A stretch of 64,000 nucleotides of DNA from Halocatena salina (GTDB lineage: Archaea; Halobacteriota; Halobacteria; Halobacteriales; Haloarculaceae): assembly GCF_023115355.1 (NCBI RefSeq), contig NZ_CP096019.1:992001-1056000 (forward strand). The letters run 5' to 3'. A model generated the notes under the pieces. It did not search any database. It was not told the origin of the DNA and worked only from the letters and a program-made list of their open reading frames with translations. The translations under genes and the position numbers were made by a program. Positions 40,369 through 41,874 of this stretch are shown in pieces (the first letter of the stretch is position 1; every line of letters begins with the position of its first letter).

Positions 40369-40544
40369 TGCTCCCGGGAGACGGAAGCCGGAGAACAGCA
40401 ATACGAGCGTTCCACGAGCCGACGACTTTCTGCGATCGGGCACTTCCTACTCCATAGTGGATGCTGTATCATTAAAATGCATTCGGCACATTCAAAAAGA
40501 TATGATTGATAGAACTTGCTAAGTATCTTCAGTAGGAGCTTTGC

Positions 40545-40630
40545 ATACGGTTCTGAACGCGGAAAACGCTCTGCGTGAGTAAGGCGATATCGTCGCGGTG
40601 GCGAAGCGGTATGATGTAGACCGCGAGCGG
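40545..40630 (+). pseudogene. vestigial copy of the 5' end of the ABC ATPase gene
   Basis: Bases 40545-40601 align without gaps to 40925-40981, the start region of the ABC ATPase gene, with 45 of 57 identities by my count. The copy reads VLNAENALRE, stop, GDIVAVA against VLNAENVRREYGDTVALD. Its start codon is ACG and it holds an internal TAA. A weaker match (VDR) continues to about 40630, where the hairpin array begins. It is a dead 5' fragment. Confidence 0.75.
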
Positions 40631-40870
40631 TAGCGAGCGGCTTTTTCCCATCTTTGTTGCGTTCTCGCGAGCGCAGAGAGGAACGAAGTTCCTCAAGCAA
40701 CCGGGCGCAGCCCGGTGACAGCGAGTGAGAGCCAGAGAGGCGCGTAGCGCCTCAAGCAGCGAGGAGCGAAGGCTACGAAAATCTTCGATTTTCGCGCTCC
40801 CGAAAACGCAGCGCGTTTTCGAGGACTCCTCGGGCAGTCGGCCTGCGGCCGACGACAGCCGGGCTTCGCC
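40620..40870. repeat. array of short perfect hairpins with 3-nt loops
   Basis: Perfect inverted repeats with 3-nt loops follow one another. GAGGAAC/GTTCCTC (loop GAA) is at 40678-40694. ACCGGGC/GCCCGGT (GCA) is at 40700-40716, and GAGGCGC/GCGCCTC (GTA) at 40737-40753. CGAAAATC/GATTTTCG (TTC) is at 40776-40794, enclosed by GGAGCG/CGCTCC. CGAAAACGC/GCGTTTTCG (AGC) is at 40801-40821, CGAGG/CCTCG (ACT) at 40820-40832, and GTCGGCC/GGCCGAC (TGC) at 40837-40853. A weaker ACCG/CGGT pair opens the array. There is no coding frame of normal composition. Confidence 0.9.
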
Positions 40871-40926
40871 GAGCGGAAAAAAGGTGGATCAGAAGCCTTA
40901 CGCCCGGACCACACCTCGGTTCGGAT

Positions 40927-41874
40927 ATGGTTCTAAACGCCGAGAACGTTCGGCGTGAGTATGGGGATACCGTTGCCCTGGATGGGGTGTCGCTCTCCGT
41001 CGATCGAGGGACGGTGTTCGCGCTCATCGGTCCGAACGGCGCGGGAAAAACGACGCTCACCCGTTCGCTAACGGGGACGACCGACTACGAAGGCACAGTC
41101 GAGCTGTTGGGTGCGCCACCGGAACGGACGGACACCCAGCGGATCGGGCTGCTTCCTCAGTCGTTCGCCCCGCCCGAGCGGCTCACAGCCCGGGAACTCA
41201 TCGAGTACTACGGGGGGCTGTACGAGGAGGCTCGATCTCCAACGGCAGTGCTCGAAGACGTCGGGCTGACAGACGCGGCGGACACGTGGTACGAGTCGCT
41301 TTCGGGCGGACAACAACGGCGGGTCTGTGTCGGAATCGCGCTCGTAAACGATCCTGAGCTGCTCGTGTTGGACGAGCCGACGACGGGGATCGACCCTGCG
41401 GGTCGACGCGACCTGTGGCGGCTCCTCGAACGCCTCACCGACGACGGCACAACTGTCGTGCTCACCACCCACTACATGGAGGAAGCCGAATATCTCGCCG
41501 ACACGGTCGGATTGCTCGCCGACGGATCGCTTGTCGCTACCGGACCACCACAGACGCTGATCGAGGCGTACGGGGGCTCGAATCGGCTGGAAGTCGAACT
41601 CGCCAAAAGCGTCGATCCCAACACGGCCGAACGTGCAACCGAACCGATCGGAAACGGCGTCGATACCACCGGCCGTACGCTCACCATCCACGGCGTGACG
41701 CCACGTGCGATCGGGGACGTGCTCGACGCGCTCGATGACGCAGGGATCGACTACGACGCGCTGTCGTGGCGACAGCCGGACCTCGAATCAGTGTATCTGG
41801 AGTTGACCGGGACGTCTCGTACTGAGACACCCGCATCTAACGCCGACCGAACGGAGGAGAGTACGACACCATGA
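40927..41874 (+). CDS. ABC transporter ATP-binding protein
   Basis: The 315-residue ATPase has Walker A GPNGAGKTT at 35-43, a Q-loop in LLPQSF, signature SLSGGQQRRV, Walker B LLVLDEPTTGID and the switch His in LTTHYMEEAEYL. It is of the DrrA/CcmA-like export type with a C-terminal extension. It overlaps the permease gene by four bases. Placement between ctaB-cluster genes and a DUF420 gene suggests a role in copper or heme handling for the oxidase, as inferred for similar haloarchaeal clusters; the cargo is unknown. Confidence 0.93.
   Translation: MVLNAENVRREYGDTVALDGVSLSVDRGTVFALIGPNGAGKTTLTRSLTGTTDYEGTVELLGAPPERTDTQRIGLLPQSFAPPERLTARELIEYYGGLYEEARSPTAVLEDVGLTDAADTWYESLSGGQQRRVCVGIALVNDPELLVLDEPTTGIDPAGRRDLWRLLERLTDDGTTVVLTTHYMEEAEYLADTVGLLADGSLVATGPPQTLIEAYGGSNRLEVELAKSVDPNTAERATEPIGNGVDTTGRTLTIHGVTPRAIGDVLDALDDAGIDYDALSWRQPDLESVYLELTGTSRTETPASNADRTEESTTP

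Follow-up and report, generated by a model that had tools for sequence, protein, structure and literature searches.

What could place six perfect hairpins, each with a stem of its own, within 176 bp of intergenic DNA? The window analysed here is a 64-kb stretch of the Halocatena salina genome (4.01 Mb), in which an earlier note had reported a tandem series of hairpins, most with 3-nt loops and all with different stems. We could confirm this description. Between 40678 and 40853, the window sequence holds six perfect hairpins with 3-nt loops and stems of 7-9 bp, and two weaker ones raise the total to eight hairpins of 5-9 bp (Table 1); the stem sequences are unlike one another. Perhaps the cluster is simply an artefact of chance or composition in a GC-rich genome? 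The window is 58% GC, and short palindromes are frequent in it. Under a first-order Markov model of the 64-kb window, however, hairpins with a stem of at least 7 bp and a 3-nt loop are expected 5.6 times per 64 kb, or about 0.015 times per 176 bp, and six were observed. This disparity refutes chance, as do the dispersed copies, the covariation and the controls described below, and we give composition essentially no weight as an explanation.

Table 1. Hairpins and repeat components of the array, in window coordinates
Feature	Position	Strand	Composition and remarks
Weaker hairpin	40620-40631		5 bp, 2-nt loop
M1 left end	40620..40646	+	Imperfect hairpin CCGCGAGC..GCGAGCGG, then T run; about 20 occurrences in the H. 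salina genome
M1 inner part, left arm of hairpin with unit 1 in its loop	40647..40674	+	Uninterrupted in L007 (..GTTCCCGCGAGCGCCAGCGAGTGGGAACC..)
Complete 45-bp unit 1	40675..40719	+	AGA-GAGGAAC GAA GTTCCTC-AAGCA-ACCGGGC GCA GCCCGGT-GAC
Hairpin	40678-40694		7 bp, 3-nt loop, perfect
Hairpin	40700-40716		7 bp, 3-nt loop, perfect
M1 inner part, right arm	40720..40733	+	
First half of outer unit	40734..40757	+	AGA-GAGGCGC GTA GCGCCTC-AAGC, broken inside joiner
Hairpin	40737-40753		7 bp, 3-nt loop, perfect
Nested unit	40758..40856	+	AGC-GAGGAG..CTCCTC-GGGCA-GTCGGCC TGC GGCCGAC-GAC, in outer joiner
Further double hairpin	40771..40824	+	CGAAAATC TTC GATTTTCG-CGCTCC-CGAAAACGC AGC GCGTTTTCG; present too in G005 L233
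Hairpin	40776-40794		8 bp, 3-nt loop, perfect
Hairpin	40801-40821		9 bp, 3-nt loop, perfect
Weaker hairpin	40820-40832		5 bp, 3-nt loop
Hairpin	40837-40853		7 bp, 3-nt loop, perfect
Remnant of outer second hairpin, fused to M1 right end	40857..40890 (end approximate)	+	CCGAGCGGAAAAAAGGTGG

Repeats that make up the array

The earlier note had implied that the array is unique. This proved wrong: the block is made of multi-copy repeats found in H. salina and its relatives, and it has 55 matches within the H. salina genome. Two components recur there independently. The first, which we call M1, is a shell located between genes: it opens on the left with a hairpin and a T run (40620-40646) and closes on the right with CGAGCGGAAAAAAGGTGG; its right-end match (query 280-296) is repeated at many H. 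salina sites, and an 84-nt M1 core is present in 32 of 59 relatives, most strongly in Halocatena. The second is a double-hairpin module, CAGA-hairpin-AAGCA-hairpin-GACAG, which lies inside M1 and also occurs free of it (L006, L008, L010, L013 and L014). The 48-bp motif of unit 1 has four identical copies in the genome, every one of them within M1.

Two further observations concern the surroundings of these repeats. At seven loci (L002, L003, L007, L012, L015, L017 and L020), M1 follows a small multi-copy gene at a distance of 60-100 bp; the encoded protein ends in ..HADD, the one member tested had no Pfam match, and the gene and M1 may together form a larger repeated element. Immediately left of the array, at 40540-40601, 62 nt from the start of the ABC ATPase gene (40920-40981) are repeated in decayed form (77%).

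The right half of the array is nested. Its outer unit is interrupted within the joiner, an arrangement (..GCCTCRRGC/AG.., with the slash at the break) seen again in genome G005 at L202, L204, L229, L234 and L237. The unit that sits in this joiner has its first hairpin enlarged by the further double hairpin, and L233 of G005 is a homologous enlarged variant. Its outer stem is GCGGAG/CTCCGC, compared to GAGGAG/CTCCTC in the window: both sides have changed, and the change is compensated. Hairpins of the enlarging kind constitute a second family, CGAAAATCTTCGATTTTCG with CGAAAACGC..GCGTTTTCG, nested in units in the window and at L233; the family also appears as a single hairpin in other genera (L128, L192, L199 and L225).

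A 45-bp unit with covarying stems

The unit is exactly 45 bp long and has the form AGM-(7 bp/3 nt/7 bp)-NRGCA-(7 bp/3 nt/7 bp)-GAC; it also forms tandem arrays with a period of 45. How widely is it distributed? In a search with a covariance model of the module, for which E-values are rough, 48 of 59 related genomes had the unit, as did 33 of 42 genera; G005 gave 89 matches, and G053 gave 49. With the first hairpin left as 17 free bases (N17), a pattern searched against 84,980 species genomes found at least 119 loci. Among the matches listed, all but four are in Halobacteria, in about 25 named genera, and the locations are archaeal chromosomes plus one plasmid. The first hairpin, again among the matches listed, pairs at 7 of 7 positions in 85 of 111 distinct haloarchaeal units and at six or more in 99; the four matches outside Halobacteria have 1, 1, 3 and 5 of the seven pairs and are chance matches. 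An exact-pattern search of viral contigs returned zero matches, and a search for similar plasmids found none. Two genomes given as separate species, G002 and G006, both have a 3,915,224-bp contig with identical match coordinates, and one may contain the other.

The loops follow no single rule. Those of the second hairpin are often GNA (69 of 111 units among the matches listed), and TTC occurs too, as if loops sometimes flip. We considered C(GNA)G mini-hairpin loops as a rule and rejected it: it fits many triplets of the second loop, but the first loop is free. In G005, at L209, L212, L215 and L126, units are adjoined by a variant module whose hairpins have different joiners (GACATCACC...GGTTAGCA).

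The joiners are constant, while the stems vary and covary. Across ten H. salina copies, 92% of cells are paired, compared to 78% after shuffling; two-sided changes occur in 7 of 14 pairs, and slid-register controls fail to show pairing. Covariation is strong in the wider set as well. At pairs left free by the pattern, 167 distinct units contain 459 compensated cells; 48 cells are unpaired and 12 are G-T, the last among 1837 free cells. G005 alone has 42 different sequences among 45 units, nearly all perfectly paired. The earlier note had argued that each stem must keep its own pairing and that plain repeat expansion does not explain the hairpins; both points proved right. Since G-T pairs are so scarce, we infer that the palindrome matters at the level of DNA, which argues against selection on RNA.

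Is the encoded peptide responsible for the pairing? In histidine kinases, tandem units occupy the N-box loop (VEHGST..). At synonymous positions of these N-boxes, two pairs covary (54/62 and 55/62, with 28 and 32 expected), and hence the peptide is not the cause. Element-free kinase N-boxes were tried as a negative control and dropped, as their synonymous sites pair too (10/10 and 8/10), which leaves this comparison with no clean control. In the kinases at L083, L102, L117, L149, L156, L158 and L179, which have tandem units in this loop, the first hairpin encodes the kinase's own VEHGST. The N-box may be where the element originated or adapted.

Replication template switching, acting alone as palindrome correction, would rewrite the arms from each other, so that pairing is a by-product and mobility unnecessary. 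It would fit the large excess of two-sided over one-sided changes, the near absence of G-T intermediates, and the joint change of the kinase synonymous pairs. It leaves unexplained the constant joiners, the fixed 45-bp length and the clean empty sites described below. Moreover, stem changes at orthologous non-kinase sites are mostly single: 21 one-sided versus 4 two-sided, in a tally whose compared pairs are not independent. We therefore think it unlikely that template switching suffices, though it may act alongside mobility. At the same orthologous sites the loops are the most changeable part, and the predominance of one-sided stem changes indicates that resident copies decay. Pairing-preserving change seems to be tied to a mobile phase, and pairing would be kept either since only perfect copies move or since movement rewrites the arms.

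Insertion sites and host genes

Several sites are occupied in one genome and precisely empty in others. An enolase-superfamily gene contains the unit in G005, whereas G000, G004 and G002 lack the 45 bp in alignments that are otherwise gap-free (78-86% identity). A second gene filled in G005 is empty at this site in G000. At a beta-CASP nuclease site, the insert is missing from nearly all listed orthologs, and G061 is 45 bp longer. The window locus itself is empty in the congeners G001, G002 and G003, which have the same gene order and a short spacer but no array. One site differs: in G004, the second gene (L247) carries just one imperfect hairpin, GAGGAGCAACGCTTCTC, which a partial deletion may have left behind.

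Of 134 solitary copies, 132 follow a triplet that ends in C (GAC in 75, AAC in 37). The right end is GAC whichever left triplet precedes. This limits any target duplication to one or two bases at most, and we rejected target-site duplication on this basis.

Outside Halocatena, most copies are found within coding sequence, as AGC GAG GNN CNN AGN NCC TCN GGC AGC CGG ACG CAG TCC GGC GAC. Where both flanks have a clear third-position GC signal, 65 of 73 matches share one open sense frame. This frame, starting at AGC, encodes the polar 15 residues S-E-x-R-S-x-S-G-S-R-T-Q-S-G-D as a linker, for example SEGRSPSGSRTQSGD. The host proteins are unrelated and often core enzymes; those confirmed by Pfam include adenylosuccinate synthetase, acetyl-CoA synthetase, FAD/NAD disulphide oxidoreductases, hydantoinase B, peptidase M20, beta-CASP nuclease and histidine kinase. 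Judging from the conserved frame, the unit is probably tolerated in genes because it reads as a polar linker. The excess of in-frame copies may also come in part from the use of GAC mostly as an Asp codon. Besides in-frame copies there are intergenic ones, in the window, in G000 and in G005.

Might the array instead have been selected at the window locus as a functional RNA or a transcription barrier? Its RNA fold is stable (z = -4.6), and M1 has T runs at both ends and often lies just 3' of genes; the T-run shell may be a terminator. However, an Rfam search of the array found nothing above the gathering score, the orthologous locus lacks the array in three congeners, and elsewhere most units are within coding sequence. 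G-T pairs, normal in functional RNA helices, are nearly absent from the stems. Such a role is thus very unlikely. Among the proposals of the earlier note, an enzymatic process that makes inverted copies is still viable, but a single self-templated array at the locus is unsupported, as is a stand-alone RNA scaffold, because the block consists of dispersed, apparently mobile units with constant joiners that elsewhere lie mostly inside other genes.

A probable mobile element and its known counterparts

We think it likely that non-autonomous mobile double-hairpin elements have piled up to form the array. In such an element, the joiners (AGM before the first hairpin, RGCA between the two, GAC after the second) would be read by sequence and the stems by pairing alone. 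Its insertion point would be 3' of a triplet with C as the last base, in most cases RAC, and the target would not be duplicated. The element would probably move as folded single-stranded DNA, and the hairpins would be needed for this mobility. In the window, two units, one of them nested, would have landed in an intergenic T-run repeat. Some findings run counter to mobility: copies within a genome are almost all distinct, as in G005, unlike those of a normal recent transposon burst; viral contigs gave no exact match; and the comparison with Y1 transposases, described below, identified no enzyme. Fold-back rewriting of the arms across the 3-nt loop during movement, making each new copy a new perfectly paired stem, would account for G005 copies that are distinct yet nearly all paired, and for the one-sided decay of residents. 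We offer this last idea tentatively and think it unlikely.

In-frame selfish palindromes had so far been an oddity known from a few bacteria and a single methanogen. Here, they would form a class-wide archaeal family that adds 15 residues to core enzymes, reaches dozens of copies in some genomes and is cleanly missing from the corresponding sites of congeners. The filled and empty sites provide many natural before-and-after pairs for studying how proteins tolerate insertions, and annotators should be cautious of 15-residue insertions in haloarchaeal alignments and in histidine kinases. Variable stems between constant joiners offer a test bed for how the arms of a hairpin are kept complementary during mobility, a question that also applies to the mitochondrial elements below. 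Fold-back rewriting, if true, would be a generator of pairing-preserving diversity that also supplies proteins with in-frame peptide linkers. In the papers searched, with subscription journals mostly outside the search, we found no published description of the unit or its peptide; this is weak evidence of novelty.

How does the unit compare to described elements? It works like Rickettsia palindromic elements (RPEs) and double-hairpin elements (DHEs) and resembles the PATEs and SMRs of Haloquadratum walsbyi, but in each case a defining feature is absent from the unit or could not be established for it. The portion of PMC3119063 that we draw on describes PATEs and SMRs as short, transposase-free mobile repeats; PATEs have near-end palindromes and no target duplication, and SMRs target IS605-type elements. 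That portion also gives IS605-derived PATEs in Haloquadratum. Could the unit be a minimal PATE-like derivative of IS605/IS1341 ends, mobilised in trans by a Y1 transposase that recognises end hairpins and cleaves 3' of a short target? In several genera (L052, L054, L066, L074, L155 and L169), units do lie in what look like end hairpins of IS605/IS1341, and duplication-free insertion 3' of RAC matches the IS200/IS605 mechanism. Beyond the insertion point, however, no end sequence common to the unit and a whole IS was established. Y1_Tnp is missing from G037 (26 units), G028 and G002, yet present in G042 and G043, which have no units; the Y1 (IS200) transposase does not follow unit number, and presence and absence across genomes do not support it as a required partner. 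Finally, PATE and SMR sequences are conserved and mostly about 80 bp or longer, with no in-frame coding use described in that portion of the source, whereas the stems of the unit are not conserved. We consider derivation from IS605 ends doubtful.

PARCELs likewise consist of palindromic DNA encoding tandem peptide units, but these make up domains arranged in tandem within repeat proteins, and none were found in Archaea (PMC2996958). DHEs of fungal mitochondria have two adjacent short hairpins and are scattered, and those of Allomyces are reported to lack target duplications (PMC2800124, PMC5910586). The unit resembles them in that two adjacent hairpins make up one dispersed element, present or absent among close relatives without target duplication. 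Compared by description, it differs in being archaeal rather than mitochondrial, in its fixed 45 bp, and in its in-frame position in essential enzymes. In the repetitive hairpin-forming elements (RHEs) of sponges, variation is in the loops and the stems are conserved; in the unit, stems vary with compensation. RPEs, like the coding palindromes of Wolbachia and Methanocaldococcus jannaschii, are both intergenic and in frame within conserved genes (PMC2229807, PMC2996958), and the unit shares this dual placement, in frame within unrelated genes in most clear coding cases. RPEs are 105-146 bp long and form one long stem-loop with 12-bp terminal inverted repeats (PMC2229807). In contrast, the unit has two independent 7-bp hairpins in 45 bp, and its ends, AGM and GAC, are not inverted repeats; it is tandem and nested, class-wide in distribution, and its stems are variable but paired.
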